Positions 38,776 through 55,121 of a stretch of DNA of 64,000 nucleotides are shown here, piece by piece. The stretch is taken from positions 248,001-312,000 of the forward strand of contig JAPZRU010000007.1 of the NCBI GenBank assembly GCA_027531255.1, given 5' to 3'. Origin of the DNA: Steroidobacteraceae bacterium (GTDB lineage: Bacteria > Pseudomonadota > Gammaproteobacteria > Steroidobacterales > Steroidobacteraceae). The notes beneath the pieces were generated by a model. It was not told the DNA's origin. It worked only from the letters and a program-made list of their open reading frames with translations, and made no database searches. Each line of letters begins with the position of its first letter. Position 1 is the stretch's first letter. The position numbers and the translations under genes are program-made.

Positions 38776-39393
38776 CTAGGGTGCCCAGGCCGCCCGGAGT
38801 TGCGCGGTGGTGAGCGGGTGCGCGAACAGGAGGCTCATCGCCTTCAGCGCGTTCGCCTGGCGGTCCGGTTCCCACTCGGCCACGGCGTCGGTGAGCACGA
38901 AGGTGCGCAGGTCGCGCTGCGCGGCGTCGCGCACGGTGGTCTCGACGCAGCAGTTGGTGGTGACGCCGCACACCACGACCTCGCGCACGCCGAGCCCCGA
39001 CAGGCACGATTCGAGCGGCGTGCCGAAGAACGCGCTCGGCCGGTTCTTGTCGATCACGAAGTCGCCGTCGCGGGGCGCGAGTTCGGCCACGACGGCCTGG
39101 TCCCAGCTGCCGGCCACCAGCGCGCCGACGTCGGCCAGCATCGGGAATTTCTCGCGCAGCATGAAGCCGCCGTCGCGGAAGTCCGGCCGGTAGGTGTAGC
39201 GCGTGTAGATCACCGGCACGCCCGCCGCGCGCGCGGCGGCGACCGCGTCCATGCACGGCTGCAGCGAGGGCGCGAGCGCGGCGACCGGGAAGCCGGACCG
39301 CGCGCAGGAGCCTTCCGCGCGCAGGAAGCCGTTCTGCATGTCCACGACGATCAGGGCCGCCGAGTCGGCGGCGGGCAGCGGTATGTCGCTCAT
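38776..39393 (-). CDS. Isochorismatase-family cysteine hydrolase
   Basis: A 205-residue enzyme of the isochorismatase/nicotinamidase fold. The triad is visible: Asp18 in VVDMQNGF, Lys116 in VIDKNRPSAF, and Cys149 in GVTTNCCVETT. Close relatives cleave amides or N-carbamoyl groups (nicotinamide, maleamate, ureidoacrylate), so an amidase step is likely. ATG 39393 with GAGGCG upstream. It directly follows the TonB receptor gene on the same strand (63 bp), opposite a nitrilase, so both C-N hydrolases may act on one imported substrate. Confidence 0.9.
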   Translation of the reverse strand: MSDIPLPAADSAALIVVDMQNGFLRAEGSCARSGFPVAALAPSLQPCMDAVAAARAAGVPVIYTRYTYRPDFRDGGFMLREKFPMLADVGALVAGSWDQAVVAELAPRDGDFVIDKNRPSAFFGTPLESCLSGLGVREVVVCGVTTNCCVETTVRDAAQRDLRTFVLTDAVAEWEPDRQANALKAMSLLFAHPLTTAQLRAAWAP

Positions 39394-39456
39394 CGGATGT
39401 CGCCTCGGTTGGCAGACCGCGCGGCCGCAGCGCGTGCTGCGGCCGCGCGGCACGGG

Positions 39457-41823
39457 CTACCAGCGGTAGCCGAACTCGACGCCGTACGTGCGCGGCGGCG
39501 CGCGGTACAGCGCGTCGACGAGACCGGAGATGATCGGGATCACCTCGGTGTTGTACTCCTCGTCGGCGAGGTTGCGCGCCCACAGCGCCACCGACCACGA
39601 GCCCGACTCGACCGCGACCCGCGCGTTCACGAGGCCGAACGAGCTGCGCGCCGAGCCCTCGGTGTTGGCCCAGTCCCAGTAGGTCTTGCCGGTATGGGTG
39701 TAGTCGAGGCGCGCGACGCCGTTCGCGCGCTCGCCGATCGCCCACTTGTAGGTGGCGGCCGCGCTGCCCGACAGCTTCGGCACCTGCGGCCGCTGGCCGC
39801 CCTCGAACGCCGGGCTGCCGAGGAAGCTCTTGATCTCGGTGTCGATGTAGCCGGCGGCCAGCTGCACGGTCAGCGCGGGCGTCACGGCCAGCGTGAAGTC
39901 CGCCTCGAGGCCCTGCATGTCGACGCGCTCGGCCGTGGAGATCGCGAGCAGCGTCGCTTCCGGCCGGAACTCGAGCAGCTGCGCGTTCGTGGTCTCGGTG
40001 TAGAACGCGGCGGCGCTGAAGCGGGCGCGACGATCCCAGAGCTCGGACTTGAGCCCGATCTCGAAGGTCTCGGCCTCCTCCTGCCCGAAGATGTCGCGCA
40101 CGGTCGTGTTCGGGTTGAAGGCCTGCAGCAGCGCGCGCGTGCCGAACGGGTTGAAGCCGCCGGTCTTGAAGCCGACCGAGTACGACGCGTACGCGGACGT
40201 GGCCTCGGTGGGCGACCACCGCAGCGACACCTTCGGCTGCCACTTGCTGAACGTGCCCTCGCGGGTGGCGCCGGGCCGGCGCACGAACGTCGGCACCAGC
40301 ACGTTCTGCAGCAGCGTCGAGTCGCAGAACACCGCGCCGCGGAGGATGGTCTCGCCGGCGGCCGGCGCGTTGCAGCCGACGAAATTCCGCTGCTTCTTCT
40401 TGTCCTCGTCGTAGCGCGCGGCGAGCGTGAGCTCGAGCGAGTCGCTGAACGAGTAGAACAGGTTGACGAAGCCCGCGTAGGCCTCGTTGTCCTGCTCGCC
40501 CGCGGTCCAGCCGGTGGTCTGGTTCAGCGAGCCGCGCGGCTGCGGCGCGCGACGCAGGTTCACGCCGTTGTTGTCCCACGCGCTCATCGTCTCGATCAGC
40601 GGCTCGTACTTGATGTACTGCGCGCCGACGATGTAGCGGAACGGCCCGTCCTGCGCGGACGAGTAGCGGATCTCCTGCTGGACGAACTTGTCCTCGCGGT
40701 AGGTGGACTGCGTCTCGCCCGCGAGGATCGCGTTCGCGGTGTTGGCGATCGGGAAGCCGCCGCTGAAGCGGTACGGGAACGCGTCGCCGCCGAAGAAGTC
40801 GCGCGAGCGCTCGAGGCTGGTGATGGACGACAGCACGCCGCCGCCGACCGTCCAGTCGACCTTGAGCGAAACGGCGGTGCGCCAGTTGTCCACGAAGCCC
40901 GGGATGTTCGCCTCGTACGGGATCGACGTGTTGTCGCCGTCGACCGTCGGTGCGTTCGGGAAGAGGTTGAACAGCCCCGCGAGCGGCGGCTGCGACAGCA
41001 CGAACGCCGGTGTCAGCAGCGCGTTCCAGCCGAGCGCGCCGCCGAGCATGCCCTGCCAGCGAGCCTTCAGGTCGAAGGTCAGGTCGTCGGTGGGACGCCA
41101 CATCAGCCGGCCGAACGCGGTGCGCTCGTCGAAGCGGTGTGGCTCCTCGCCCGTGCGCGCGTTCTCGTAGAAGCCGTCGGAGCGGCGGTAGGAGATGCCG
41201 GTCGTGAACGCCAGATTCTCGGACAGCGGGCCCGAGATCGTCGCGCTCGCGGTGATGCCCTCGCCGTTGCCGACGCCGGCCTTCACCTCGCCCTCGTACG
41301 CGTCGAAGTTCGGCGCGCGCGTGCGGATCACCACCGCGCCGCCGAGCGCGTTGCGCCCGTAGAGCGCGCCCTGCGGGCCCTTCAGCACCTCGATCGCCTC
41401 GAGGCCGTACATCTCCTGGTTGAACAGGTTCTGGCCGAGCTGCTGCACGCCGTCGATCACGAACGCCGTCGAGGTGTCGCCCTCGCGGACCTGGGTGTTG
41501 CCGCGGATCGTGACGAACAGCTCGCCGGGCTGGCTCGACTGCACGAACGTGACGTTCGGGGTCAGCGCGAGGAAGTCGCCCGCGCGGGTGACGTTGGCGT
41601 CGCGCAGCGCCTCGGCGTCGAACACCTCGACCGAGACCGCGGCCTGGATCAGCGACTCCTCGCGCCGCTGGCCGGTCACGATGATCTCGCCGAGCTGGCC
41701 GTCGGCCGAGGCCGCGGGCTCCGCCGCGTGCACGGCGCCCCAGCCGCCGAGCCCGAGCCCGGTGCCGAGTGCGAGCCGCACGCAGTCACGGACCGAAAGT
41801 CTTCGCTTCACGTTCATGATCAT
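39457..41823 (-). CDS. TonB-dependent receptor
   Basis: A 788-residue outer-membrane receptor. The signal peptide ends near AVHAAEP. A TonB box-like EIIVTGQRREE follows, then the plug domain (QGALYGRNALGGAVVI-type motif) and a 22-strand barrel ending in TYGVEFGYRW with a terminal Trp. The carboxylate-substrate subclass typical of sphingomonad-like catabolic genes fits best; no siderophore genes are nearby. A dying paralogue lies at 45228-46440. ATG at 41823 with GGGGGATG upstream and a clear promoter at 41914-41943. Substrate probably the compound degraded by the surrounding enzymes (inference). Confidence 0.93.
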   Translation of the reverse strand: MIMNVKRRLSVRDCVRLALGTGLGLGGWGAVHAAEPAASADGQLGEIIVTGQRREESLIQAAVSVEVFDAEALRDANVTRAGDFLALTPNVTFVQSSQPGELFVTIRGNTQVREGDTSTAFVIDGVQQLGQNLFNQEMYGLEAIEVLKGPQGALYGRNALGGAVVIRTRAPNFDAYEGEVKAGVGNGEGITASATISGPLSENLAFTTGISYRRSDGFYENARTGEEPHRFDERTAFGRLMWRPTDDLTFDLKARWQGMLGGALGWNALLTPAFVLSQPPLAGLFNLFPNAPTVDGDNTSIPYEANIPGFVDNWRTAVSLKVDWTVGGGVLSSITSLERSRDFFGGDAFPYRFSGGFPIANTANAILAGETQSTYREDKFVQQEIRYSSAQDGPFRYIVGAQYIKYEPLIETMSAWDNNGVNLRRAPQPRGSLNQTTGWTAGEQDNEAYAGFVNLFYSFSDSLELTLAARYDEDKKKQRNFVGCNAPAAGETILRGAVFCDSTLLQNVLVPTFVRRPGATREGTFSKWQPKVSLRWSPTEATSAYASYSVGFKTGGFNPFGTRALLQAFNPNTTVRDIFGQEEAETFEIGLKSELWDRRARFSAAAFYTETTNAQLLEFRPEATLLAISTAERVDMQGLEADFTLAVTPALTVQLAAGYIDTEIKSFLGSPAFEGGQRPQVPKLSGSAAATYKWAIGERANGVARLDYTHTGKTYWDWANTEGSARSSFGLVNARVAVESGSWSVALWARNLADEEYNTEVIPIISGLVDALYRAPPRTYGVEFGYRW

Positions 41824-41900
41824 CCCCCACTTGGACGTTCCAGGAATCGGGTCGCGGGCAACTCGACCCGGTCGGCAGTCTACGCGATGCGTGACGCAAC

Positions 41901-41943
41901 GCCTGTTTCAGCTTATATCTCACAGGCAATTCGGAACCGTCAA
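41901..41943 (-). promoter_or_regulatory. Promoter and inverted repeat between TonB receptor and nitrilase
   Basis: On the minus strand TTGACG (41943-41938), 18 bases, GATATA (41919-41914) form a good sigma-70 promoter for the receptor gene. An inverted repeat GCCTGT...ACAGGC (41901-41906 and 41922-41927) spans the -10 element, a likely operator for a regulator such as the MarR-like protein at 43981. Confidence 0.55.
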
Positions 41944-42055
41944 ACGCGCCGGGGTCGGCGCGGTCGGCGGCGGCACGCGATGCACCGCGCTAGCGCGTGC
42001 CGCGCCGAAGGCGCACCGAAGCCGTGCGCAGCGGTTCCGCGACCCGGGAGGTGGC

Positions 42056-43066
42056 ATGGGCGAAGCGAGCAGGGTGAAGGTGGCGGCGGCCCACGTGGCG
42101 CCGGTTTTCATGGACTCCGGCGCCAGCGCGGCCAAGGCCTGCGCGTGGATCGAGCGCGCGGCCGACGAAGGCGTGCGCCTCGTCGTGTTCCCGGAGGTCT
42201 TCCTGCCGGGCTTCCCATACTGGATCAATCTCTACGCGCCGCTCGTGCAGGCTTCGCTGAACCGGCTGTACCAGGACGAATCGGTGGAAGTCGCGGGCGC
42301 GGCGGTCGACGCGATCCGCGAGGCCGCCCGTCGCTGCGGTGTCGCGGTCGTGATGGGCGCGAGCGAGCGGGCTGCGGGCGGGCGCACCTGCTACAACTCC
42401 AGCATCGTCGTCGATGCCGACGGCACGCTGCTCGGCACGCACCGCAAGCTGAAGCCGACCTACGCGGAGCGCTACGTGTGGGGCCAGGGCGACGGCTCGA
42501 CGCTGTCGGTGTGGGACACGCGCGTCGGGCGCGTCGGCGCGCTCGCCTGCTGGGAGCACACGATGAACCTCGCGCGGCAGGCGCTGATCGAGCAGGGGGT
42601 GCAGGTGCACGCGGCGCTGTGGCCGGGACTGTCGACGCTCGCGGGCTTCGACCAGGTCGCGAACCTGCAGATCGAGGCGATGATGCGCAACCACGCGCTG
42701 ACTGGGCAGTGCTTCGTGGTGTGCGCGTCGAGCCCGGTGACCGCCGAGATGCTCGACTACCTCGAGCGCCGGCTGGGTCCGCAGCAGATGCTGCAGGCGG
42801 GCGGCGGCTGGAGCGCGGTGATTCATCCCTTCGCGGCGACGCTGGCCGGACCGGTGACCGGCGGGGAGGAGCGGCTGGTGTCCGCCGAGATCGACCTCGA
42901 GGACCTGCGCGACGTGAAGATGTGGGTGGACTCCGTCGGGCACTACTCGCGGCCCGACGTGCTGCGCCTCGCGTTCGACCGCTCCGAACAGCGCACGATG
43001 ATCGTGACGGGGTCCGGGCCGACCCGTAACGCGGGCGGTGCGGGCGACGCCGACGAGCGGGGCTGA
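42056..43066 (+). CDS. Nitrilase (carbon-nitrogen hydrolase family)
   Basis: A 336-residue nitrilase hydrolysing a nitrile R-CN to R-COOH and ammonia. The triad is Glu47 (VFPEVFLPGFPYW), Lys131 (HRKLKPT) and Cys165 (ALACWEHTMN). The C-W-E-H-x-M form is that of true nitrilases, not amidases or NAD synthetase domains, and the length agrees. The start is ATG 42056 with GGGAGG 5 bases upstream. It is divergent from the TonB receptor, with which it probably shares regulation. The last ~20 residues (GGAGDADERG) are disordered and the stop lies in a 12-bp tandem repeat. Confidence 0.92.
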   Translation: MGEASRVKVAAAHVAPVFMDSGASAAKACAWIERAADEGVRLVVFPEVFLPGFPYWINLYAPLVQASLNRLYQDESVEVAGAAVDAIREAARRCGVAVVMGASERAAGGRTCYNSSIVVDADGTLLGTHRKLKPTYAERYVWGQGDGSTLSVWDTRVGRVGALACWEHTMNLARQALIEQGVQVHAALWPGLSTLAGFDQVANLQIEAMMRNHALTGQCFVVCASSPVTAEMLDYLERRLGPQQMLQAGGGWSAVIHPFAATLAGPVTGGEERLVSAEIDLEDLRDVKMWVDSVGHYSRPDVLRLAFDRSEQRTMIVTGSGPTRNAGGAGDADERG

Positions 43067-43098: not shown

Positions 43099-43848
43099 CT
43101 ACAGGCCCACCAGCAGGCCGCCGTCCACCGTGATCGTCTGGCCCGTCAGGTAGCGCGCCGAGTCGGAGACGAGGAACGCCACGACGTCGGCGATGTCGCG
43201 CGGCTCGCCGACGCGCCCGAGCGGGATGCGCGGCGCGACCGCGTCGAGCCCGGCCTGGCCCACGGAGTTCACGGGGTCGAGCGTCTGCGCGGTCCGGATG
43301 AAGCCGGGCGCGATCCCGTTCACGCGGATGCGGTCCGCCGCGAGCTCGATCGCGAGGCCCTTCACGAGGCCGGCGACGCCGGCCTTCGCCGCCGTGTAGG
43401 GCACGTGCTCGTTCCAGCCGTACGCGGTGCCCACCACCGACGAGATGCAGACGATCGCGCCGCGCTTCGCGGCGCGCATCCGCGGCGCCGCGGCGCGCAC
43501 CACGCGGATCATGCCCGTCAGGTCGACGTCGAGCGTGTGGTGCCACAGCTCGTCGGTCATCGTCGCCAGCGGCATCCGGTGCGCGATGCCGGCGTTGGCG
43601 ACGATCACGTCGAGCGGGCCGCGCGCCGCCTCGACGGCGGCGACCGCCGCGTCCGCGTCGCGCGTCGAGGTGACGTCGAGCTTCCGGAACTCGGCGGATC
43701 CGCCCGCGGCGCGCAGCGCGGCGCAGGTCTCGCGCCCCTGTTCCTCCAGGACGTCGGTCAGCACCACGTGGTCGCCGAGCGCGGCGAAGGTCTCGGCGCA
43801 GGCGCGGCCGATGCCGATGCCGGCACCGGTGATCAGCACGGTTCGCAA
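43099..43848 (-). CDS. Short-chain dehydrogenase/reductase (canonical)
   Basis: A 249-residue SDR with all catalytic parts: TGAGIGIG cofactor loop, NAG (VANAGIAH), Ser in ISSVVGTAYG, and Tyr/Lys in PYTAAK. The acidic residue after strand 2 (LTDVLEEQ) suggests NAD preference. It should oxidise an alcohol or reduce a ketone in the catabolic set. The start is TTG at 43848 with GGGAGGAG 7 bases upstream, a rare codon choice supported by the strong site. It is divergent from the MarR-like regulator (132 bp). Confidence 0.9.
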   Translation of the reverse strand: MRTVLITGAGIGIGRACAETFAALGDHVVLTDVLEEQGRETCAALRAAGGSAEFRKLDVTSTRDADAAVAAVEAARGPLDVIVANAGIAHRMPLATMTDELWHHTLDVDLTGMIRVVRAAAPRMRAAKRGAIVCISSVVGTAYGWNEHVPYTAAKAGVAGLVKGLAIELAADRIRVNGIAPGFIRTAQTLDPVNSVGQAGLDAVAPRIPLGRVGEPRDIADVVAFLVSDSARYLTGQTITVDGGLLVGL

Positions 43849-43980: not shown

Positions 43981-44703
43981 ATGGACACGACGCTGCGGAC
44001 CGGTGTCGCTCCCGAGGCCCGGTCCGCCGGCCAGGGCACGGGGGCCGCGTGCCGGGACCAGTACATGTCGACCGAGCCGCTGACCAGTTCCCTGACCCGG
44101 TTCGAGCTCGGCATCGTCCGCGTCTACGAAGCTTTCTCGAGCTGGGCGCTCGAGCTCCAGAAGTACGTCTCCGGGCACCAGGTCAGCTTCCAGGAAGTGG
44201 CGCTGCTGCACTGCGTCCGCCTGCGCGGCGGCGTGACGACGCTGGCCGAGATGATGATGTTCCTGCACCGACACGACCTCGCCGCGATCAACTACAGCCT
44301 GCGCAAGCTCGAGCAGAACGGCTGGATCAAGCGCATGCGCGGCCCCTACCGCCGCGAGGTGGCGTACGCGATCACCGACGCGGGGCGCGAGGTCACCGAC
44401 GCCTACGGCCGGATGCGCGACAAGGTGCTGGTCGCGCTGTGCCGCGAAGTGCTGGGCATGCAGGCCTCCACGAACGACGCCGCCGCCGTGCTCGAGCGGA
44501 TGATCGGGATCTACGACCAGGCCACGCAGCAGATCCTGAACCAGTCGCTGATCTCCGCCGCGCTCGGCAGTGCCGGCGACCAGCCGGTCGCGGCGGAGCC
44601 GGGTCCGGCCGCGGCGAATCCCGTCGGGCCCGCGCCGGCGCCGGCCGGGCCGGCCGCGACTCCGGGCAGCCGCCGGCGCGCCACGCCCAGCCGGTCTCGC
44701 TGA
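43981..44703 (+). CDS. Winged-helix (MarR-like) transcriptional regulator
   Basis: A 240-residue regulator. Residues ~55-150 form a MarR-type winged helix: WALELQKYVSGHQVSFQEVALLHCV, LHRHDLAAINYSLRKLEQNG (recognition helix), KRMRGPYRREVAYAITDAG (wing). An N-terminal ~28 residues and an Ala/Pro-rich tail of ~45 residues flank it. ATG 43981 has GGGGG 8 bases upstream; internal ATG 44065 is an alternative. Placed centrally between the nitrilase/receptor genes and the hydroxylase operon, it is the likely regulator of the island. Ligand unknown. Confidence 0.85.
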   Translation: MDTTLRTGVAPEARSAGQGTGAACRDQYMSTEPLTSSLTRFELGIVRVYEAFSSWALELQKYVSGHQVSFQEVALLHCVRLRGGVTTLAEMMMFLHRHDLAAINYSLRKLEQNGWIKRMRGPYRREVAYAITDAGREVTDAYGRMRDKVLVALCREVLGMQASTNDAAAVLERMIGIYDQATQQILNQSLISAALGSAGDQPVAAEPGPAAANPVGPAPAPAGPAATPGSRRRATPSRSR

Positions 44704-45011: not shown

Positions 45012-45225
45012 ATGCCTGATCCAGTGCTCGCGGGCGTGCCGCGCGACCGGATGACGCCTGCGCACCGCGAGGTCTGGGACCTCGGCCTGCACCGCACGGG
45101 GGAGGCGACGATCGTCGAGGCGATGGCCGATCACCCCGCGCTGCAGGCCGGGCTCACGCAGGCGCACGGCGAAGCTGGTCTTCACGTTCGACATGGTGAC
45201 GCGCGAGGAGCAGTGCCCGGTACGT
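45012..45225 (+). pseudogene. Remnant of a carboxymuconolactone-decarboxylase-like gene
   Basis: ATG 45012 (GGAAGAG upstream) starts GVPRDRMTPAHREVWDLGLH and RTGEATIVEAMADHPAL, the N-terminal signature of AhpD/CMD-like proteins. After ~45 residues the homology stops. A change of frame near 45165 gives AKLVFTFDMVTREEQCPV, which resembles the C-terminal helix of the same family. About 100 central residues, including any CxxC site, are deleted. Non-functional. Confidence 0.7.
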
Positions 45226-45227
45226 CC

Positions 45228-46639: not shown

Positions 46640-49144
46640 ATGAGTCACGAAGGCGAGCAGGACAGGTACGTAGGGCGCTCGGTCCGCAACCTCGGGCAGG
46701 ACGCGTTCGTCTCCGGCGTCGCGAAGTACACGAGCGACTTCCAGTTCCCCGACCAGCTGCACATGCACGTGGTGCGCAGCCCGCACGCGCACGCGCGGAT
46801 CCGACGCGTGGACCTGTCGGGCGCGCGCAAGGTCGCGGGCGTCGTGCTGGCGATGGAGGGCCAGGAAGCCGCCCAGCTGCTCGACCCCGTGCCGCACTAC
46901 ATCGACCCGGTCGGCTTCGGCGGCAAGACCGTGCCGATCCGCTGCCTCGCCGTCGACAAGGTGTGGCACTACGGCCAGCCGGTCGCGGTGGTCGTGGCCG
47001 AGGACAAGCGCACGGCCCGCTACGCCGCGTCGCGGGTGCAGGTCGACTACGAGCCGCTGCCCGCCGTGCTGGACGCCGCCGAGGCGGTGCAGCCCGGCGC
47101 GCCGGTGGTCGTGCCCGGCTGGGCCGACAACAGCATCATGGCGCTGCCGTTCGCGAACGGCGACGTCGCGCAGGCCTTCGAGCGCGCCGACCGCGTCGTC
47201 AGGACCACCGTGCGCATCCACCGCTTCTCGACGCAGCCGATCGAGACGCGCGTCTACAACGCCGTGCCGGATCCCGAGACGCACGGGCTGACCTTCTACG
47301 GCACGAGCCAGAATCCGCATCCGCTGCGCCACGTGCTCGCACGGGCGCTGCGCATCCCCGAGAACCTGATCAGGATCATCGCGCCGGCGGTCGGCGGCGC
47401 GTTCGGCATGAAGATGCACGGCCACCCCGAGGAAGCGCTGGTCTGCCTGCTCGCGCTGCGCACGCAGAAGCCCGTCAAGTGGGTCGAGGACCGCGAGGAG
47501 TGCCTGCTGATTGGCGCCCGCGAGCAGGTCCACGAGATGGAGCTGGCGCTGACGAAGGACGGCGAGATCCTCGGCCTGCGCGACCGCGCGCTGGCGAACA
47601 CGGGCGCGCCGAGCGCGTGCCCCGGCTGGGGCATGGCGTTCCTGACCGGCCTGACGATGCCCGGCCCGTACAAGGTGCAGGACATCGACGTGCTGATGAA
47701 CATCGTGGTCACCAACAAGCCGTCGTGGAACGCCTCGCGCGGCTACGGCAAGGAGGCGACCGCCCTCGCGCTCGAGCTCGCGATCGACCAGGCCGCGCGC
47801 GAGATGGGTCTCGACCCGGTCGAGATGCGCATCCGCAACTTCGTGCCGAAGGACGCGTTCCCGTACGACAGCCCGACCGGGCTGATCTACGACTCGGGCG
47901 ACTACGCCGGCGCGGTGCGCAAGGCGATGGAGGCGCTCGGCTATGCCGAGTGGCGCCAGCGCCGGGAGGAATCGCGGCAGGCGCTCGGCTTCGGTGCGAG
48001 TGCGAAGGTCGCGGGCGGCGGCGTCGTCGGGGCCGCGGCGCCGGGCGCGGCCGGCGGCGCGAAGCTGATCGGCATCGGTCTCGCCTACGAGCTCACGCCC
48101 GAGGGCGGCGCGATCCCGGGCACGATGGTCGCCGGCTACGACAGCTCCACCGTGCGCGTCGGCCCCGACGGCTCGGTGACGCTGCTCACCGGCGTCACCA
48201 CGCCCGGCACCGGCAACCCGACCGGCATGGCGCAGATCGTCGCCGACGAGCTCGGCGTCGAGGTCGAGACCATCCGCGTCGTGCAGGGCGATACCACCAC
48301 CTGCCCGTACGGCTTCGGCAACTACTCGGGCCGCAGCACGATCGTCGGCGGCGGCGCCGCGGCGCTGGCGGCGCGCGAGGTGCGCGAGAAGATCCTGACG
48401 GTCGCGGCGGCGCTGCTCGGCGTCGACAAGGCCACCGTGACGATGGACCGCGGCGTGATCCGCTCGAGCGCCGCGCCGGAGAAGACGCTGTCGCTGCCCG
48501 AGGCGGCCTACGCCTGCTACACGCGCGCCTACGACATCGGCCTCGCGATCACGCCGCCGCTCGAGGCGCAGGCCACGTTCCGGCCCGGGCTGATCCGCCA
48601 CTCGCCGGACGCGAAGGGGCGCATCAATCCCTACCCGTCGTACTCGAACGCCGCCTACGCGACGGTCTGCGAGGTGGACCTCGAGACCGGGCAGGTGAAG
48701 CTGCTGAAGTTCGCGGCGGCGCACGACTGCGGCAAGGTGATCAACCCGATCCTCGTCGAGGGCCAGGCCTGCGGCGCGATCTCGTTCGGCATCGGCGGCA
48801 TGCTGAACGAGGAGATCCGCTTCGACGCGAACGGCAAGCAGCTGACCGGCAGCTTCGTCGACTACGTGATGCCGCGGGCGCTCGACGTGCCGGCGATCGC
48901 CGTCGCGCATCACGACAGCCCGAATCCCGTGACCTACCTGGGCCTGAAGGGCGCGGGCGAGGCGGGCGTCGGCGGCAGCGCCGCGGCGGTCGTCAACGCC
49001 GTGAACGACGCGCTGCTGCCGCTCGGCGTCTCGATCAACGACCTGCCGGTCACCGCGCCGCGCGTGTGGGCCGCGATCCAGGCGGCGAAGGACGCGGCGC
49101 GGCCGGCCGAGCGGCCGGCGGCCGCCACCCGGGAGGTCGCATGA
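46640..49144 (+). CDS. Molybdenum hydroxylase large subunit (xanthine dehydrogenase family, Mo-cofactor)
   Basis: An 834-residue molybdopterin-binding subunit. Opening RNLGQDAFVSGVAKYTSDFQ, APAVGGAFGMKMHGHPEE, the Mo-site segment SRGYGKEATALALE, TTPGTGNPTGMAQI and the catalytic glutamate in LKGAGEAGVGG near the C-terminus. The CO-dehydrogenase loop (AYXCSFR) is absent, so it hydroxylates an organic substrate, typically an N-heteroaromatic or aldehyde. An unusual Gly/Ala-rich insert (GASAKVAGGGVVGAAAPG) is at ~455-475. ATG 46640 with GAGGG upstream; ATGA overlap with the FAD subunit. Confidence 0.92.
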   Translation: MSHEGEQDRYVGRSVRNLGQDAFVSGVAKYTSDFQFPDQLHMHVVRSPHAHARIRRVDLSGARKVAGVVLAMEGQEAAQLLDPVPHYIDPVGFGGKTVPIRCLAVDKVWHYGQPVAVVVAEDKRTARYAASRVQVDYEPLPAVLDAAEAVQPGAPVVVPGWADNSIMALPFANGDVAQAFERADRVVRTTVRIHRFSTQPIETRVYNAVPDPETHGLTFYGTSQNPHPLRHVLARALRIPENLIRIIAPAVGGAFGMKMHGHPEEALVCLLALRTQKPVKWVEDREECLLIGAREQVHEMELALTKDGEILGLRDRALANTGAPSACPGWGMAFLTGLTMPGPYKVQDIDVLMNIVVTNKPSWNASRGYGKEATALALELAIDQAAREMGLDPVEMRIRNFVPKDAFPYDSPTGLIYDSGDYAGAVRKAMEALGYAEWRQRREESRQALGFGASAKVAGGGVVGAAAPGAAGGAKLIGIGLAYELTPEGGAIPGTMVAGYDSSTVRVGPDGSVTLLTGVTTPGTGNPTGMAQIVADELGVEVETIRVVQGDTTTCPYGFGNYSGRSTIVGGGAAALAAREVREKILTVAAALLGVDKATVTMDRGVIRSSAAPEKTLSLPEAAYACYTRAYDIGLAITPPLEAQATFRPGLIRHSPDAKGRINPYPSYSNAAYATVCEVDLETGQVKLLKFAAAHDCGKVINPILVEGQACGAISFGIGGMLNEEIRFDANGKQLTGSFVDYVMPRALDVPAIAVAHHDSPNPVTYLGLKGAGEAGVGGSAAAVVNAVNDALLPLGVSINDLPVTAPRVWAAIQAAKDAARPAERPAAATREVA

Positions 49145-50016
49145 GCCTGCACCCGCAGTACGCCCGCCCGCGGTCGGCCGCGCAGGCCGTCGCGCTGCTC
49201 GACGGGCTCGGCGCCGGCGCGATGGTCATCGCCGGCGGCCAGGAGCTGATGCCGCACGTGAACTACGGCCGCCTGATGCCGGCCGTGTACGTCGACATCG
49301 GCGGGCTTCCGGAGCTGCGCGGCATCGCCGAGGCCGACGGTGCCGTGGCGATCGGCGCGCTGACCGTGCACCGCGACGTGCAGAGCAGCGAGCTGGTGCG
49401 CGCGAAGCTGCCCCTGCTGGCCTGGGCCGCCGGCCAGGTCGGCGGCGGCTGGCAGGTGCACAACCGCGGCACGATCGGCGGCAACCTGGTGTCGATGCAT
49501 CCGCTCTACGACATCGTGCCGCCGCTGCTCGCGCTCGGCGCCGAGGTCGAGATCCTCTCGACGGCGGGCACGCGACGCGTCGCGCTGTCGGGCCTGATCG
49601 CCGAGACGAGCCACGGCCTCGGCACGACGACGCTGCTGACGCGCGTGCTGGTGCGCCCGACCTCGCCGTCGACCGGCTGGTCTTACCAGAAGCTGAAGAT
49701 CACCGAGGGCAGCTACGGGTCGGCGAACGCCGCCGCCGTCGTCGCCCTCGACGGCAACCGCGTGACGGCCGCGAGGCTCGTGATGGGCGCGGTGGCGGAG
49801 CGGCCGATCGACGCGTCCGCGGCGCTCAAGGGGCTGCTGGGCCGGCCGTTCGACGCCCGCGCGGCCGCCGAGGCCGAGGCGGCGTGCGCCGCGCTCGTGG
49901 TGCAGCCGATGGACGACCAGCAGGGCGACGCGGGCTGGCGCCGGGCGATGGCGGGCGTGGTCGCGCGACGCGCGCTCGCGCAGGCGGTGGCGCGCGCCGG
50001 CGGCGCGGCGGGCTGA
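49141..50016 (+). CDS. Molybdenum hydroxylase medium (FAD-binding) subunit
   Basis: A 291-residue CoxM/CutM-type flavoprotein. MVIAGGQELMPHVNYGRLM holds the first FAD-pyrophosphate loop and HNRGTIGGNLVSMHPLYD the second. The C-terminal CO_deh_flav domain follows (YQKLKITEGSYGSANAAA). It passes electrons from the [2Fe-2S] subunit to the final acceptor. ATGA overlap with the large subunit gene; 15 bp to the small subunit gene. Confidence 0.94.
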   Translation: MSLHPQYARPRSAAQAVALLDGLGAGAMVIAGGQELMPHVNYGRLMPAVYVDIGGLPELRGIAEADGAVAIGALTVHRDVQSSELVRAKLPLLAWAAGQVGGGWQVHNRGTIGGNLVSMHPLYDIVPPLLALGAEVEILSTAGTRRVALSGLIAETSHGLGTTTLLTRVLVRPTSPSTGWSYQKLKITEGSYGSANAAAVVALDGNRVTAARLVMGAVAERPIDASAALKGLLGRPFDARAAAEAEAACAALVVQPMDDQQGDAGWRRAMAGVVARRALAQAVARAGGAAG

Positions 50017-50031
50017 CGAGGAGTACACGCG

Positions 50032-50541
50032 ATGTCTGCGAATCTCGAGGAACTGGTCGAGGACAGCGTCCTGCTGCAGTGCCGGGTCAACGGCAAGGCC
50101 TGCGAGCGGGAGATCCAGCCGGGCACGTCGCTGCTCGACTTCCTGCGCGACGAGCTGCGCCTGACCGGCACCCACATGGGCTGCATGACGGGCCACTGCG
50201 GCGCCTGCACGGTGATGCTCGACGGCCAGGTGGCGAAGTCGTGCATCACGCTGGCGGCCACGGTGCAGCGGCGTCAGATCACGACGATCGAGGGACTGAA
50301 GGGCGCGGACGGGAAGCTGTCGCCGGTGCAGCAGGCGTTCTGGGACGAGGCGGGCTTCCAGTGCGCGTTCTGCGCGCCCGGGATGCTGCTCGCCGCGACC
50401 GAACTGCTGCGCGACAACCCCGACCCTTCGGAGGACGACATCCGCCGCGCGATCGCCGGGAACCTGTGCCGCTGCACGGGCTACCAGAGCATCGTGCGCG
50501 CGGTGAAGGCCGCGGCGCGCGTGCAGCGCTCGGCCGGCTGA
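50032..50541 (+). CDS. Molybdenum hydroxylase small subunit ([2Fe-2S])
   Basis: A 169-residue iron-sulfur subunit with both cluster sites: the plant-ferredoxin type GCMTGHCGACTVMLDGQ (C-x4-C-x2-C plus a later Cys) and the alpha-helical C-x2-C...CRC type (CAFCAPGM, NLCRCTGYQSIV). It relays electrons from the Mo centre to FAD. Gene order here is large-medium-small. ATG 50032 with GAGGAG upstream. Confidence 0.96.
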   Translation: MSANLEELVEDSVLLQCRVNGKACEREIQPGTSLLDFLRDELRLTGTHMGCMTGHCGACTVMLDGQVAKSCITLAATVQRRQITTIEGLKGADGKLSPVQQAFWDEAGFQCAFCAPGMLLAATELLRDNPDPSEDDIRRAIAGNLCRCTGYQSIVRAVKAAARVQRSAG

Positions 50542-50596: not shown

Positions 50597-51172
50597 ATGA
50601 ACGCGGTGACGAGCCCGAAGCGCGAAGTGCGGGTGCTCAAGGCGAAGAAGGCCACGCCGGAGGCGCTCGCGCCGTACGGCGAGATCCTCGGCTACAACCC
50701 GAACGTCAAGCCGCTGCCGATCGACTTCTACGGCGGCAAGGCCAAGGTGCGGCGCGTCGTCAACTTCGAGTCCGACGGCGACACCGAGATGCCGGTCGTG
50801 ACGGTGGACGTCCGGCCGCTCGAGGTCAGCCACATGGAGCGGCACCCGAAGCACACGCAGGCCTTCATCTCGCTGCAGAACAAGCCGTTCGTGGTGGTGT
50901 TCGCGCCGCCGAGCGACGCCGAACTGCCGGAAGTCGACAAGGCCGAGGCCTTCCTGTTCGACGGCGAGTCCGGTTTCGTCATGAAGAAGAACTGCTGGCA
51001 CGAGTTCCCGTTCGCGCTGTTCGACGGCACGAACCTGCTGGTGGTGCTGCGCAAGGAAGCCACCAACGGCCTGACCACGGACCAGGTCTACAAGAACGAG
51101 GCGGTCGGGCCGGACCTGGTGAAGCGCGACCTCGAGGCGCGCTTCGGCCTGAGCTTCAAGGTCGAGATCTGA
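50597..51172 (+). CDS. Ureidoglycolate-lyase-like (AllA family) protein
   Basis: A 191-residue cupin-like protein. ERHPKHTQAFISL, FVVVFAPPSD, AFLFDGESGFVMKKNCWHEFP match the AllA pattern (conserved His/Gln and the final WH). Classical AllA cleaves ureidoglycolate to glyoxylate and urea in purine breakdown. No other allantoin genes are nearby, so it may act on a different ureido or amide intermediate. AGGAG ribosome site; 55 bp after the hydroxylase genes and 13 bp before the oxidase gene, hence cotranscribed. Confidence 0.8.
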   Translation: MNAVTSPKREVRVLKAKKATPEALAPYGEILGYNPNVKPLPIDFYGGKAKVRRVVNFESDGDTEMPVVTVDVRPLEVSHMERHPKHTQAFISLQNKPFVVVFAPPSDAELPEVDKAEAFLFDGESGFVMKKNCWHEFPFALFDGTNLLVVLRKEATNGLTTDQVYKNEAVGPDLVKRDLEARFGLSFKVEI

Positions 51173-51185
51173 AGGGGGTGTCGCC

Positions 51186-52781
51186 ATGAACGCAGCCGTC
51201 CTGAGCACCGGTTCCGATTCGCTGATCCGCGAACTGCAGTCGATCCTGGGCGCCGAGCACGTCAGCGCGGATTTCGAGACGCGCGACTTCTACTCGCGCG
51301 ACCTGAGCTTCCGGCCGTACCAGACCGCGGCCGTGGTGGTGCGCCCGGGCAGCCTCGACGACCTGTCGATGGCGGTCGCCGCGGCGACGCGGGCCGGCCA
51401 CGCCGTCGTCGCCCGCGGCGGCGGCATGTCGTACACGAGCGGCTACACGCCCGAGCGCCCCGACACGGTGCTGATCGACATGCGGCGGATGAACCGCGTG
51501 CTCGAGATCAACAGGGAGGACATGTACGTCGTCGTCGAATGCGGCTGCACCTGGAAGTCGCTGTTCGAGGCGCTGAACCCGCTCGGGCTGCGCACGCCGT
51601 ACTGGGGTCCGCTGTCCGGCATGTACGCGACCGTCGGCGGCGCGCTGTCGCAGAACAGCCTGTTCCACGGGTCCGGCACCGAGCGCACGGTCGCCGAGAG
51701 CGTGCTCGGCCTCAAGGTCGTGCTGGCCGACGGTTCCGTGCTGACCACGGGTTCCGGCGCGCACAAGACCAGCAACGCCTTCTGGCGGCACTTCGGCCCC
51801 GACGTGACGGGCCTGTTCACGGCCGACACCGGCGCGTTCGGCATCAAGGGCGTCGCCGTGCTGCGGCTGCTGACGCTGCAGAAGCACACCGCCTACCTGT
51901 CGTACAAGTTCGACACGCTCGAGGCGATGCTGAAGGCGCAGCTGCGCATCGCGCGGCTCGGCATCAGTTCCGAATGCTACGGCTTCGACCCGTACTACAA
52001 CGCCGGCTTCGAGAAGCAGGGCATCACGTTCGAGGAAGGCCTCGCGATCATGGGCAAGGTCGCGCGCAAGGGTGGGCTCAAGGGCCTCGCGGGCGCCGCG
52101 AAGATGGCGATGGGCGGCAAGCGCATCCTGAAGAACGTGCCCTACAGCCTGCACATGACCTTCGACGGCCACACCGAGACCGTGGCCGCCGAGCACATGG
52201 ACCTCGGCGCGGACATCTGCGCGGAGGAGGGCGGCACCGAGATGGTGAACTCGATCCCGCAGGTGTTCCGCGCCAACCCGTTCGGCGGCGTGCGCACCGT
52301 GCTGCTCGGCTCCGACGGCGAGATCTGGATCCCGGTGCACGGCTTCTTCCCGCTCTCGAAGGCCATTCCCGCGGCGCAGGCGGTCGAGAAGTGGCTGGCC
52401 GAGAAGAAGCCGCTGTTCGAGAAGTGGGGCATCAAGACCTCCTACCTGACCTGCTTCGCCGGCAGCGAGTTCGTGATCGAGCCGAGCCTGTACTGGCACG
52501 ACGAGCTCGGTCCGTTCCGGCTGTCGCTGATCGAGCCCGAGTTCGCGGAGAAGTGGAAGGACATCCCGGCGAACGAGGCGCGCCGCCAGGTGGCGCTCGG
52601 GCTGCGTGACGAACTGCGCGACATCTTCGACCGCAACGGCGGCCTGCACCTGCAGATCGGCAAGTACTACCCGTACACCGAGATCATGAACAACGAGGTG
52701 CTGCCGAAGGTGATCAACGGCGTGAAGGACGTGCTCGACCCGAAGCGCCTGGTGAATCCGGGCTCGCTCGGGCTGCGCTGA
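51186..52781 (+). CDS. FAD-linked oxidase (vanillyl-alcohol oxidase/PCMH fold)
   Basis: A 531-residue flavoprotein. The FAD_binding_4 domain covers ~45-230: VVVRPGSLDDLSMAVAAA, ARGGGMSYTSGYTPERPD and TVGGALSQNSLFHGSGT. The C-terminal substrate domain ends DPKRLVNPGSLGLR, as in D-lactate dehydrogenase/4-cresol-dehydrogenase relatives. No histidine at the usual covalent-FAD site of GGGH enzymes, so flavin is probably non-covalent. It would oxidise a hydroxyacid or a benzylic carbon within the pathway. Last gene of the operon begun at 46640. Confidence 0.87.
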   Translation: MNAAVLSTGSDSLIRELQSILGAEHVSADFETRDFYSRDLSFRPYQTAAVVVRPGSLDDLSMAVAAATRAGHAVVARGGGMSYTSGYTPERPDTVLIDMRRMNRVLEINREDMYVVVECGCTWKSLFEALNPLGLRTPYWGPLSGMYATVGGALSQNSLFHGSGTERTVAESVLGLKVVLADGSVLTTGSGAHKTSNAFWRHFGPDVTGLFTADTGAFGIKGVAVLRLLTLQKHTAYLSYKFDTLEAMLKAQLRIARLGISSECYGFDPYYNAGFEKQGITFEEGLAIMGKVARKGGLKGLAGAAKMAMGGKRILKNVPYSLHMTFDGHTETVAAEHMDLGADICAEEGGTEMVNSIPQVFRANPFGGVRTVLLGSDGEIWIPVHGFFPLSKAIPAAQAVEKWLAEKKPLFEKWGIKTSYLTCFAGSEFVIEPSLYWHDELGPFRLSLIEPEFAEKWKDIPANEARRQVALGLRDELRDIFDRNGGLHLQIGKYYPYTEIMNNEVLPKVINGVKDVLDPKRLVNPGSLGLR

Positions 52782-52854
52782 GACGCGCCGTCCGGCTCCG
52801 GGCCGGATCGTGGAGGTCCGACCCGGGGTCGCGGCGTGCGGTGCGGGGGGAGTG

Positions 52855-53030
52855 ATGCTGCGCAAGGGCTACGTGGACGCGCTCGATACGCCGGGCTTCG
52901 GGGGGGGGCTCGTACGAGCCCGAGGGCCAGCCGACGATGGCCGACTACGGTCGCGTGCCGCTGGAAGCGACCCGCGCGCGCGGCCTCGAGCGGATGCACC
53001 TGTTCGGCCGGGCGACCGATGAAAGCGCGG
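52855..53030 (+). pseudogene. Alpha/beta hydrolase remnant
   Basis: ATG 52855 (GGGGGAG upstream) reads MLRKGYVD, then jumps over ~47 codons directly to ALDTPGFGG, the oxyanion-side turn found at residues ~54-62 of the neighbour at 53096. A run of nine G (52900-52908) shifts the frame; the next frame continues GGSYEPEGQPTMADYGRV and RGLERMHLFGRATDES before homology fades. It is a third copy of the hydrolases at 53096 and 54312, destroyed by deletion and frameshift. Confidence 0.75.
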
Positions 53031-53095
53031 GAGCTCTCTTCGTTCCGGCTCGCCAGCTTCGTAACCGCCTGCCCACGAACCGCGGAGGATTCCAC

Positions 53096-53887
53096 TTGAT
53101 CCTGAAAGGCTACGCGAACATTCCCGCCGGCCAGGTGCACTACCGCCGGCTGCACGGTCCCGGCCTGCCGGTGGTCTGCCTGCACCAGACCGCCAGCTCG
53201 GGCGCGATGTGGGTGAAGGTGATGGAGCGCATGCGCGGCGAGCGGCCGTTCGTCGCGCTCGACACGCCGGGGTTCGGCGGCTCGTTCGACCCGCCGCAGC
53301 TGCCGCCGTCGATCGGCACCTACGCCGAGTGGCTGCTCGAGTCGCTGGACGCGCTCGGCATCGGCCAGTTCCACGTGCTGTGCCATCACACGGGCGCCTG
53401 CATCGCGGTAGAGATGACGGCGCGACAGCCGGAGCGCGTCGCCTCGGTCGCGATGATCGGCCCGGTCCCGCTCACCGAGGCCGAGCGCGAGGAATACAAG
53501 AAGTACTACTCGTCGCCGTTTTCGCCGACGGCCGAGGGCGAGTACCTGAAGACCACCTGGGATTACCTGCGGGGGCTGGGAGCCCACGGCGATCTCGCAC
53601 TGCACCACCGCGAACTGCTGGACACGGCGCGCGCCTACATGGGCCGCTTCATGGCCTACACGAACGTCTGGCGCCAGGACTTCACGAAGCCGTTCCTCGG
53701 GATCCGCGTGCCGCTGCTGCTGATGTGCGCCGAGGACGACGTGCTCTGGCCGTTCTTCGGCCGCGCGAAGGAGATGCGACCGGACGCCGATTCCGCGGTG
53801 CTGAAGGGCGCCAACTTCGAGCCGGATCTCGACCCGGACGGCGTCGTCGGGGCCTACCGGGCCTTCCTCGCGAAGCACGGGCTCTGA
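53096..53887 (+). CDS. Alpha/beta hydrolase-fold protein with His at the nucleophile position
   Basis: A 263-residue alpha/beta hydrolase. The start is TTG at 53096, chosen because GGAGG is 8 bases upstream and the sibling protein starts at the same point; no nearby ATG exists in frame. CLHQTASSG and LDTPGFGGS are standard turns. At the nucleophile elbow (normally G-x-S-x-G) it reads C-H-H-T-G, with His98 in place of Ser. Asp/His later in the chain (MCAEDDVLWPFFG) look normal. It may be a C-C hydrolase, dioxygenase-like or lyase variant; an ordinary esterase is unlikely. Confidence 0.85.
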   Translation: MILKGYANIPAGQVHYRRLHGPGLPVVCLHQTASSGAMWVKVMERMRGERPFVALDTPGFGGSFDPPQLPPSIGTYAEWLLESLDALGIGQFHVLCHHTGACIAVEMTARQPERVASVAMIGPVPLTEAEREEYKKYYSSPFSPTAEGEYLKTTWDYLRGLGAHGDLALHHRELLDTARAYMGRFMAYTNVWRQDFTKPFLGIRVPLLLMCAEDDVLWPFFGRAKEMRPDADSAVLKGANFEPDLDPDGVVGAYRAFLAKHGL

Positions 53888-53962
53888 GCCGGTCGCAGCC
53901 GGCGGTTCCGACACCATTCGTTCGACGGACACGGGCACCGACGCCCCGGGGAGGCAGGTTCG

Positions 53963-54307
53963 ATGGCGATCACGATCACCCCCAACGCCCGCCGCGATGC
54001 GCCCGAGGTCAGCGGCGCCAGCGGCGCGATCCCGTACTCGAAGTTCCGCAGGTACACGGTGAACGACAGGGACCCGCACGACGCACCGGTCTTCCCGGTC
54101 CCGTTCATCGAGGGCTCGCGGTTCAAGGCGAGCAACACCGGCATCGACGAGCCGGCGGTGCAGGTGAACTTCGAGGACTGGCTGCCGAACACGCCGGACA
54201 TCGTCTGGAAGGTGCTCGGCGACCAGCCGTTCCGGCAGCTCTGCATCTGCCTGCCGAATCCCGGCTATCCCATCCCGGTCGCGAACAGCGTCCGCGGCGG
54301 GGGCTGA
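53963..54307 (+). CDS. Hypothetical 114-aa protein between the two hydrolases
   Basis: No family recognised. ATG 53963 has GGGGAGG 9 bases upstream, so it is probably translated. The chain is Pro-rich with many aromatics (IPYSKFRRYTVNDRDPHDAP, VNFEDWLPNTPDIVWKVLGD, CICLPNPGYP), no membrane helix or signal. Tight spacing (4 bp to the next start) puts it in the hydrolase transcription unit. It could be a small cupin-like or accessory subunit, or a shortened relic of a longer protein. Confidence 0.6.
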   Translation: MAITITPNARRDAPEVSGASGAIPYSKFRRYTVNDRDPHDAPVFPVPFIEGSRFKASNTGIDEPAVQVNFEDWLPNTPDIVWKVLGDQPFRQLCICLPNPGYPIPVANSVRGGG

Positions 54308-54311
54308 GCGC

Positions 54312-55121
54312 ATGGGTACCGTCTCCCGCGGCTACGTCCACACGCCCGGCGGCCAGGTTCACTACCGCACCGCCGGACCCGCCGGCGCGCCGGTCGTCGC
54401 GTTCTTCCACCAGACCGCGTCGTCGAGCCGGATGTTCGAGCTCGTGATGGCGGAACTGGCAGGCGAGTTCCGCTGCTACGCCTTCGACACGCCCGGTTTC
54501 GGCCAGTCGTGGCAACCGCGCGAGGTGCCGTCGGTCGCGTGGCTCGGCGAACGGCTCGTCGAGGCGATCGACGCGCTGGGCGTCGATCGCTTCGTGGTCT
54601 GCGGCCACCACACCGGCGGCTGCGTCGGCCTCGAGATCGCGCTCGCCGTGCCGGCCCGCGTGCGCGGGCTGTCGATCATCGGGCCCGTGACGCCGACCGC
54701 CGCGGAGCGCGAGCAGTACTCGAAGGTGTTCCTCGAGCCGTTCAGGCCCGAGGCCAGCGGCGAGTTCCTGAAGACCGCGTGGGAGTACCTGCGCACGATC
54801 GGGGCCGGCACGAACGTCGACCTGCACACCGCGGAACTGGTGGACCACCTGATCGCCTGGCGGTCGATGCCGCTCGCGTTCGGCGCGGTGTGGCGACAGG
54901 ACGCGGCGGCCGGGCTCGCGAAGGTGACGGTGCCGCTGCAGCTGATGTGCTCGAAGGACGACGTGCTGTGGCCGATGTTCGCCCGGGCGTGCGAGCTCCG
55001 GCCCGATGCTCGCACGGCGATCGTCGAGGGCGGCGACTACCAGCCCGACCGGGACCCGGCGCGGGTCGCGAGGGCGCTGGCGGAGTTCGTGCGCGAGCTG
55101 CCGCGCGGGGGCGGCGACTAG
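54312..55121 (+). CDS. Alpha/beta hydrolase-fold protein with GHHTG nucleophile elbow
   Basis: A 269-residue paralogue of the protein at 53096, about half identical by eye. FFHQTASSS and FDTPGFGQS turns are kept. The elbow reads G98-H-H100-T-G102, so His100 replaces the catalytic Ser, as in its neighbour. The acidic residue in CSKDDVLWPMF is also shared. Two paralogues with the same replacement show it is not a sequencing error. ATG 54312, four bases after the preceding stop; it ends by 4-bp convergent overlap with the GGDEF/EAL gene. Confidence 0.87.
   Translation: MGTVSRGYVHTPGGQVHYRTAGPAGAPVVAFFHQTASSSRMFELVMAELAGEFRCYAFDTPGFGQSWQPREVPSVAWLGERLVEAIDALGVDRFVVCGHHTGGCVGLEIALAVPARVRGLSIIGPVTPTAAEREQYSKVFLEPFRPEASGEFLKTAWEYLRTIGAGTNVDLHTAELVDHLIAWRSMPLAFGAVWRQDAAAGLAKVTVPLQLMCSKDDVLWPMFARACELRPDARTAIVEGGDYQPDRDPARVARALAEFVRELPRGGGD

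Follow-up and report, generated by a model that had tools for sequence, protein, structure and literature searches.

Several described systems stand close to the locus considered here. They are the Rut pathway, of which molybdenum (Mo) hydroxylases, TonB receptors and FAD oxidases are not part; three-subunit Mo hydroxylases such as quinoline 2-oxidoreductase (Qor), in which the Glu of the GAGEAG (GxGE) motif is catalytic; the aerobic CO dehydrogenase CoxL, with CSFR as its active-site loop; and nitrilases such as NitA, whose catalytic motifs carry Glu, Lys and Cys. In this work, we analyze a 64,000-nucleotide stretch, hereafter the window (G000:C29:248001-312000), of the 4.2-Mb genome of a Steroidobacteraceae bacterium (G000, 40 contigs), in which an original prediction, made by a model from the letters alone, had singled out positions 38776-55121 as a possible undescribed catabolic island for a nitrile, amide or N-heteroaromatic compound. 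At the center of this island stand two proteins with an alpha/beta-hydrolase fold and a His at the nucleophile elbow (hyd1 and hyd2). According to the available sections of one source, the superfamily works with a Ser, Asp or Cys nucleophile or with a D/E-H dyad, and the His after strand 8 is "totally conserved" (PMC11878206). In the cofactor-independent dioxygenases of the HOD/QDO type, which share the fold and possibly the same N-heterocycle setting, the nucleophile Ser is not needed; for HOD, the available part of a second source describes the Ser as dispensable and the His-Asp dyad as required (PMC10548524).

Judging from gene content and its recurrence, we consider it rather probable that the region is one partly decayed copy, joined by a nitrilase, of a catabolic island that is probably shared horizontally and that we did not find described. 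Its core recurs in Alpha- and Gammaproteobacteria in varying subsets, comprising the Mo hydroxylase, an AllA-like protein, an FAD-linked oxidase (FADox), two or three His-elbow proteins, a TonB receptor, a MarR regulator, a short-chain dehydrogenase/reductase (SDR), WrbA, cupins and a CMD-family protein. Recurring with this core are a RutA-like flavin monooxygenase, a methyltransferase-fold protein (MT388), its 120-amino-acid partner (p120) and a class III aminotransferase (AT3). No description of the island turned up in the papers searched, in agreement with the earlier statement that no characterised pathway is known to have this combination.

Recurrence of the Island in Other Genomes

Named genomes were scanned with an alignment of 13 hydrolases, which gave 300 pattern hits and 280 relatives, the best 80 of which were kept and form 79 loci; a scan of named genomes with a single hydrolase sequence, made before this one, had found no match. 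Genes in the loci were called with a simple caller and labeled by blastp, the reference families having been clustered from the window and 42 of the 79 loci, which is not an independent annotation, and many neighbor names (EthD-like, SnoaL-like, HMG-CoA lyase, truB) come from reading sequence starts, with some of them checked.

By tblastn at E ≤ 1e-6, a threshold at which locus counts include distant paralogs, FADox was found in 37 of the 79 loci, the SDR in 32, TonB in 28, the cupin in 18, MarR and the isochorismatase in eight each, each Mo subunit in six, the AllA-like gene in five and WrbA in four; no close nitrilase lies inside the 79 loci, where a single partial match at 26% was obtained. 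FADox relatives at 55% or more are present in 30 loci. These contain TonB (18), the cupin145 family (18), GntR (17), MT388 (16), p120 (14), SnoaL-like (13), CMD (10), RutA-like (9), SDR (8), MarR (8), Mo (6), HyuB (6), HyuA (5), AllA (5), WrbA (4), AT3 (4) and isochorismatase (4) genes.

Relatives of the large, medium and small Mo subunits occur in the same six of the 79 loci (64-71%, 55-61% and 66-70%), with an AllA-like relative (56-61%) directly behind the small subunit in five of the six. The order MarR(-)-TonB-cupin-(CMD)-MoL-MoM-MoS-AllA is common to L117, L119, L120 and L131, and relatives of the window MarR (35-46%) adjoin a TonB gene in eight of the 79 loci. Moreover, L119 and L131 bring Mo, AllA, FADox, hyd1, RutA-like, AT3, MT388 and p120 genes together in a single run, L133 reads FADox-hyd1-cupin-MoLMS-AllA-MT388-p120-(one gene)-hyd2, and L089 carries MoLMS, AT3, RutA-like, SDR, hyd2, FADox, hyd1, a third hydrolase, TonB, cupin, WrbA and others. 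The SDR and WrbA share a cluster with FADox and the hydrolases in L089, L102 and L124: SDR relatives (62-63%, tblastn) adjoin hyd2 in L089 and L102, and WrbA relatives (60-64%) are found in four of the 79 loci, L089, L094, L102 and L124. Relatives of hyd2 (51-57%) occur in island loci such as L089, L091, L101, L102 and L133, and the intact TonB receptor of the window matches receptors of L089, L117 and L119 at 32-34% over about its full length. Because the gene set recurs in other genomes, a chance grouping is excluded.

The nitrilase/receptor half and the hydroxylase/hydrolase half of the predicted island do meet elsewhere, and the comparison of gene neighborhoods that had been proposed turned out in favor of the island, with a Mo hydroxylase neighborhood that recurs in six of 79 loci. 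The TonB and MarR genes adjoin the Mo/AllA run in L117, L119, L120 and L131, and the SDR and WrbA accompany FADox and the hydrolases; for the nitrilase, the predicted linkage is weaker. A search for the Mo large subunit in 298 genomes of the sphingomonad family of G712 (E ≤ 1e-200, three candidates scored per genome) matched three, namely the island carriers G707, G709 and G715, the source of L117, L120 and L133. In such searches weaker relatives go uncounted, given the strict cut-offs and the few candidates per genome (four for FADox, seven for the nitrilase, three for Mo).

Among the named carriers of the FADox/hydrolase core are Thermaurantiacus tibetensis, which also carries the Mo hydroxylase, Erythrobacter rubeus, Sphingobium chungbukense DJ77 and Sphingomonas sp. 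Y57. L092, titled as a metagenome-assembled genome of Klebsiella pneumoniae, has FADox, hydrolase and HyuAB genes; its FADox groups with uncultured Gammaproteobacteria, and its label is probably wrong. On plasmid pSA1 of Novosphingobium resinovorum SA1 (L085 10436-18062, from a plasmid search), an FAD oxidase is directly followed by a His-elbow hydrolase and then by genes read as maleate-isomerase-like, deacetylase-like, flavin monooxygenase and aldehyde dehydrogenase, a different pathway setting for the same enzyme pair.

The His-Elbow Proteins

The two window proteins, hyd1 and hyd2, share 46% identity. We aligned 101 sequences, 99 from the loci, which had partly been chosen by the HHTG pattern, and two from the window. 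All 101 copies have His at the nucleophile elbow (G-H-H-T-G), in place of the Ser, Asp or Cys of a catalytic triad, which bears out the earlier description of these hydrolases as lacking Ser. The acid position holds Asp in 99 copies and Glu in two. At the usual place of the catalytic His (position 240, after strand 8) there are Asn in 67, Asp in 13, other residues in 21 and His in none, with one His at position 239 among the 101; hyd1 has Asn240 and hyd2 an Asp at the same place. In a motif-free control, the elbow His was found in 22 of 22 relatives from the own order, and it also appears in 25 further copies from the same loci, which may themselves have met the HHTG pattern. Two of these 22, the distant relatives L058 and L059, are an exception, retaining a His at about the usual catalytic place, and nine alignments with more distant paralogs of the own genome gave an elbow His in six, Phe in two (one gene counted twice) and Trp in one.

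An AlphaFold model of hyd1, for which 67 of 74 non-redundant sequences were used, has a mean pLDDT (predicted local distance difference test) of 97 and places His98 at the elbow, with strand 92-97 before it and helix 99-110 after it. The model superposes on an esterase at Z 31.3 and 2.2 Å over 253 of 263 residues, as expected of an alpha/beta-hydrolase fold; esterases and an enol-lactonase match it at Z 30-31, and the Foldseek order puts fluoroacetate dehalogenases first. The fold is the same as that of these canonical hydrolases, but the hyd proteins are without a Ser, Asp or Cys elbow and mostly without the catalytic His.

We rejected a HOD-like dioxygenase for the hyd proteins, as the base His is missing (none of 101 at position 240). 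In the available part of the source, HOD retains the triad His as base, whereas in the hyd family this His is mostly gone and another one stands at the elbow (PMC10548524). The HHTG family thus fits neither the superfamily rules nor the dyad scheme of HOD, and such a set of residues is not listed in the classification section of PMC11878206. The string GHHTG was found in none of the open-licence papers searched. The reaction scheme first proposed is not supported, and its hydrolase step is not ordinary Ser-triad hydrolysis. Tentatively, the HHTG proteins may represent a separate catalytic design (elbow His, acid-site Asp, Asn or Asp replacing the catalytic His), and may serve as lyases, oxygenases or covalent-histidine enzymes in a modular pathway, so far undescribed, through which proteobacteria would import and degrade a common N-heterocyclic natural product, a possibility that we regard with some doubt.

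Gene Content of the Window and Its Partner Contigs

The gene families named in the original prediction are present, with open reading frames in place and family searches in agreement. Its limits need amendment: the left edge should take in WrbA (38082-38693), and the remnants of CMD, TonB and hydrolase genes and a shortened cupin had gone unlisted. As delimited here, the island consists of about 17 genes and gene remnants including WrbA:

38082..38693, minus strand: WrbA-type NAD(P)H:quinone oxidoreductase, named by reading the sequence, not by family search
38776..39393, minus strand: isochorismatase-family amidohydrolase (PF00857, E 2.9e-47), RutB/BiuH-like, under both cut-offs
39457..41817, minus strand: TonB-dependent receptor, intact (translation read; match to cluster receptors)
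42056..43066, plus strand: nitrilase (PF00795, E 3.7e-46; in the PDB, closest to NitA and other nitrilases, E 1e-65)
43099..43848, minus strand: SDR (PF13561, E 5.9e-64)
43981..44703, plus strand: MarR-type regulator (PF13463, E 1.9e-11)
45012..45240, plus strand: CMD-family gene remnant, N- and C-terminal parts only, two frames
45201..46433, plus strand: second TonB receptor remnant with internal gaps and frameshifts (tblastn pieces; partial PF00593/PF07715)
46640..49144, plus strand: Mo hydroxylase large subunit (NCBIfam, PDB comparison)
49141..50016, plus strand: Mo hydroxylase FAD-binding medium subunit (NCBIfam)
50032..50541, plus strand: Mo hydroxylase 2Fe-2S small subunit (NCBIfam)
50597..51172, plus strand: AllA-like protein, ureidoglycolate-lyase family (PF04115, E 1.2e-19)
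51186..52781, plus strand: FADox, FAD_binding_4 (PF01565, E 2.7e-34)
52873..53068, plus strand: third hydrolase-like gene, frameshifted remnant (match to L089 hydrolases, two frames)
53096..53887, plus strand: hyd1, alpha/beta-hydrolase fold, His98 at the nucleophile elbow, HHTG (PF00561/PF12697, model)
53963..54307, plus strand: cupin-like protein (cupin145 family) without its central part (alignment to L102/L119/L133 cupins)
54312..55121, plus strand: hyd2, second His-elbow (HHTG) protein of this fold (PF00561/PF12697)

The left part, with genes on both strands, runs from WrbA to MarR and then into a decayed stretch; the right part, from the Mo genes to hyd2, lies wholly on the plus strand, and beyond hyd2 follows, on the opposite strand, a gene read as GGDEF/EAL-type. 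The Pfam search covered 10 window proteins, leaving out the Mo subunits and the intact TonB gene. None of the 10 window proteins searched against NCBIfam, a set that left out the SDR and TonB proteins, reached a curated cut-off. A very G+C-rich inverted repeat (15 of 17 pairs) lies at 39417-39450, between the isochorismatase and TonB genes.

The three subunits, together with the catalytic-position Glu of the large one, aligned with that of Qor, place the Mo enzyme in the xanthine oxidase family. In subunit make-up it resembles the three-subunit Mo hydroxylases, Qor included, and phmmer matches it to Qor at E 2.6e-115. CoxL slightly outscores Qor against the large subunit (417 versus 390 bits), yet CSFR is absent from the window protein, which has NASRGYGKEA at the aligned place, and we rejected an aerobic CO dehydrogenase on this ground. 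The name xanthine dehydrogenase was rejected at 376 of the 780 bits of its cut-off, and the name AllA at 68.8 of 212 bits for the best AllA model. An AllA-like search in 398 genomes of the phylum gave, besides the own genome, two distant matches only.

Part of the system lies elsewhere in G000. A RutA-like enzyme, 71% to the L119 copy, is encoded at G000:C16:142961-144019 (L173 9962-11074), between genes read as truB and rpsO in a nusA-infB-rbfA-truB-rpsO-pnp run, an odd site for a catabolic gene. MT388 (59%), p120 (44%) and AT3 (70%) stand in a row on contig C2. Contig C38 has a sister cluster with HyuAB (71-75%), two isochorismatases, a coenzyme A (CoA) transferase, MT388 and p120, and also another FADox with hydrolases. 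The system is thus spread over three contigs, or four counting the sister cluster. MT388 (L119:18992-20158, with an extra N-terminal part) and p120 (L119:20155-20517), the latter without any Pfam match, recur together, in 20 and 19 of the 42 loci plus the window; G000 itself gives eight matches to MT388, five of them at 40-57% over most of the length.

Probable Horizontal Sharing

The window FADox is 75-76% to its closest alphaproteobacterial copies, 60-66% to those of the uncultured Gammaproteobacteria L093, L095, L097, L098, L108 and L124, and at most 46% to any in 295 other genomes of its own order (four candidates scored per genome). The best other hyd2 relative in the order reaches 37% over its length and 39% over a part. 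In the FADox tree, midpoint-rooted, the window stands beside 16 alphaproteobacterial rows at a node with support 89/94 that is not starred. For the flanking ABC-F gene, 16 of 20 relatives give identities of 50-61% and the remaining four only paralogs; in six alphaproteobacterial carriers the identity does not exceed 43% across most of the gene. We rejected contamination as an explanation of the alphaproteobacterial look of the island, since ABC-F follows the host family and the reported contamination is 0.09%. Horizontal sharing of the island is probably the simplest reading of these sequence comparisons.

Nitrilase and Isochorismatase

The GALACWEH signature, the FPE and HRKLKPTYAE motifs and matches to solved structures establish the nitrilase as a member of its family. 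It has its catalytic motifs in common with NitA (PDB 6zby; E 1.4e-65), and its gene setting differs. The name Nit6803 was rejected at 265 of the 502.6 bits of the cut-off. For the isochorismatase, RutB was rejected at 115 of 378 bits, and the BiuH model gave 96 of 370.

We searched for the nitrilase in 24 genomes, those of 25 chosen among the 79 loci, 23 of them with a close FADox and one, G712 (Novosphingobium sp. MD-1), with the sister cluster only. Matches at E ≤ 1e-10 were found in 12, and at 64% or more in four (G696, G704, G705 and G712). A nitrilase-anchored search of the 298 genomes of G712's family (E ≤ 1e-120, seven candidates scored per genome) matched three: G712, which was the search center and already known, G1002 and G753. 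The distance from the nitrilase to a hyd-family gene is 10-11 kb in G1002 and G705, whereas in G712 it is about 14 kb; an isochorismatase is present in each. Around it, G1002 has HyuAB, LeuCD-like and phosphoenolpyruvate (PEP)-mutase genes, MT388, p120, two more hydrolases and an isochorismatase 50% to that of the window, with no FADox called; G712 has a similar set plus FADox, its isochorismatase (52%) adjoining the nitrilase, and the region in G705 (the L130/L194 contig) resembles that of G712. Isochorismatase relatives at 50-52% lie near the nitrilase in L192, L201 and the L130/L194 contig. The hydrolases of these sister clusters are 42-55% to hyd1/hyd2, and paralogous FADox genes (38-40%) occur in L125 and L130. 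In G696 (L196), WrbA (74%) and CMD (66%) lie some 3 kb away from the nitrilase, and in G704 the nitrilase stands beside an amidohydrolase-like and a ligase-like gene; in the stretches examined, no hyd-family gene or close FADox is near the nitrilase of G753, G704 or G696. From these neighborhoods, the nitrilase and isochorismatase seem at home in the sister cluster and accessories to the island.

In G712 (L192 10605-19999) the nitrilase/isochorismatase pair is found some 5 kb upstream of genes read as truB-rpsO-pnp, which in G000 is the location of the RutA-like gene. L133 has at 12601-13437, near hyd2 of its Mo-bearing island, a gene that reads like a nitrilase-superfamily amidase and is not of the window's nitrilase type.

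The window might instead hold two unrelated neighboring systems, a nitrile- or amide-use unit (isochorismatase, TonB, nitrilase) and an island of Mo hydroxylase, FADox and hydrolases. Besides the lack of a close nitrilase in the 79 loci, a close one is missing from 20 of the 24 genomes searched, the G753 nitrilase lies among genes that look like sugar-acid use, and the closest plasmid relatives are from Streptomyces (58-60%), the one neighborhood examined there being unrelated. Nevertheless, in G712, G1002 and G705 the nitrilase is accompanied by an isochorismatase and by hydrolases of the sister type, and in G696 by WrbA and CMD, and TonB, MarR and SDR are island genes in other genomes, all of which makes two separate systems unlikely.

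Decay of the Window Copy

The CMD remnant corresponds to residues 1-44 and 164-193 of the 193-amino-acid CMD protein of L089 (PF02627), at 57% and 50%. The pieces of the TonB remnant, in frames 1 and 3, match at 27-43% (tblastn), and an intact receptor stands there in L117, L119, L120 and L131. Between MarR and the Mo genes, L117 has TonB, cupin and CMD genes, all intact, so that the window appears to be missing genes proper to this place. Additionally, the third hydrolase remnant covers residues 51-116 of the L089 hydrolases in two frames, and the cupin, with an internal in-frame gap, has about 88 residues against about 136 in those of L102, L119 and L133 (35-37% identity); the intact L119 cupin matches Cupin_3/EutQ, and that of the window matches nothing.

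The island of G000 could be a dying relic without function, given its four broken or shortened genes and the dispersal of partner genes to two other contigs. However, the genes for the Mo subunits, the AllA-like protein, FADox, hyd1 and hyd2 are open, and relatives at 51-76% can be aligned with them over nearly the whole length; of the genes that were lost, TonB and the hydrolase are duplicates and CMD and the cupin look accessory, so that we find a functionless relic improbable.

Substrate and Proposed Pathway

A known purine, pyrimidine or pyridine pathway in disguise (xanthine dehydrogenase/AllA, Rut, nicotinate or nicotine) would account for the Mo hydroxylase, the AllA-like protein and the RutB-like isochorismatase of the window, and for the RutA-like (9 of the 30 close-FADox loci) and RidA/RutC-like proteins of its relatives. 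Island copies tested differ from true Rut proteins in falling under the equivalog cut-offs, as does the RutA-like enzyme of L119 (370 of 498 bits), in line with the shortfalls given above for xanthine dehydrogenase, AllA and RutB, and the full gene set of none of these pathways was recognised in the island, which leaves a disguised known pathway very unlikely. A biosynthetic or tailoring cluster, which recurring methyltransferase, cupin, SnoaL/DUF4440 and CMD families might bring to mind, is less credible still, with a TonB receptor in 18 of the 30 loci that have a close FADox, no core synthase apparent in the gene lists examined, and sister clusters whose HyuAB, LeuCD-like, PEP-mutase, HMG-CoA-lyase-like and CoA-transferase genes, named partly by reading, are typical of breakdown.

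Some of our data do not favor a single nitrilase-joined catabolic island. Among the stretches examined, the nitrilase stands beside the Mo hydroxylase only in this window; of the three genomes from the nitrilase-anchored search, G753 shows no link to the island and G712 was the search center. The Mo hydroxylase is present in only six of 79 loci, because of which the core may serve several substrates, and among the Mo-bearing loci only L119 shows RutA-like, AT3, MT388, p120 and hyd2 genes all within the stretch examined. Near-duplicate loci (L119/L131, L097/L098, L109/L142) inflate the counts a little. An operator shared across the island was rejected, since the comparison of its intergenic stretches gave no shared 12-mers and five shared 11-mers without clear meaning. 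Finally, the pathway may be broken in this genome, because this copy of the island is decaying.

For the catabolic island that we favor, the enzyme families suggest a nitrogen heterocycle as substrate with about an even chance; any one named substrate would be a poor guess. The AllA-like, RutB-like and RidA/RutC-like partners point to a heterocycle that forms a ureide or lactam, and HyuAB, LeuCD-like and PEP-mutase genes in the sister clusters to ring fragments handled as amides and substituted malates. Given partners of the RutA-like, AllA-like, HyuAB, LeuCD-like and PEP-mutase kinds, the ring might be pyrimidine-fused or derived from a tetrapyrrole.

In such a pathway, the TonB receptor would import an N-containing (hetero)aromatic compound that porins cannot serve because of its size or scarcity, the Mo hydroxylase would hydroxylate a ring carbon adjoining the nitrogen, and the RutA-like enzyme would open the resulting lactam. 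FADox may oxidize a side chain or hydroxy acid, and the His-elbow proteins may then use acid-base chemistry, with no acyl-serine intermediate, to cleave the product or rearrange it. The SDR, WrbA, aminotransferase and AllA-like protein would clear the fragments, the nitrilase and isochorismatase would release ammonia from nitrile or amide side groups, and MarR would switch the set on with the substrate.

Catabolic islands are already known, and what is unusual here is the combination of a Mo hydroxylase, a RutA-like oxygenase and His-elbow proteins. As far as its sequences tell, the most notable part is the catalytically rearranged hydrolase-fold family at the center of the island, whose active site departs from both superfamily rules, the elbow nucleophile or dyad and the His after strand 8, as these are stated in the available sections of PMC11878206. 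Since several named strains carry the FADox/hydrolase core of the island, its substrate and chemistry are testable, and their elucidation would give a function to several orphan families at once.

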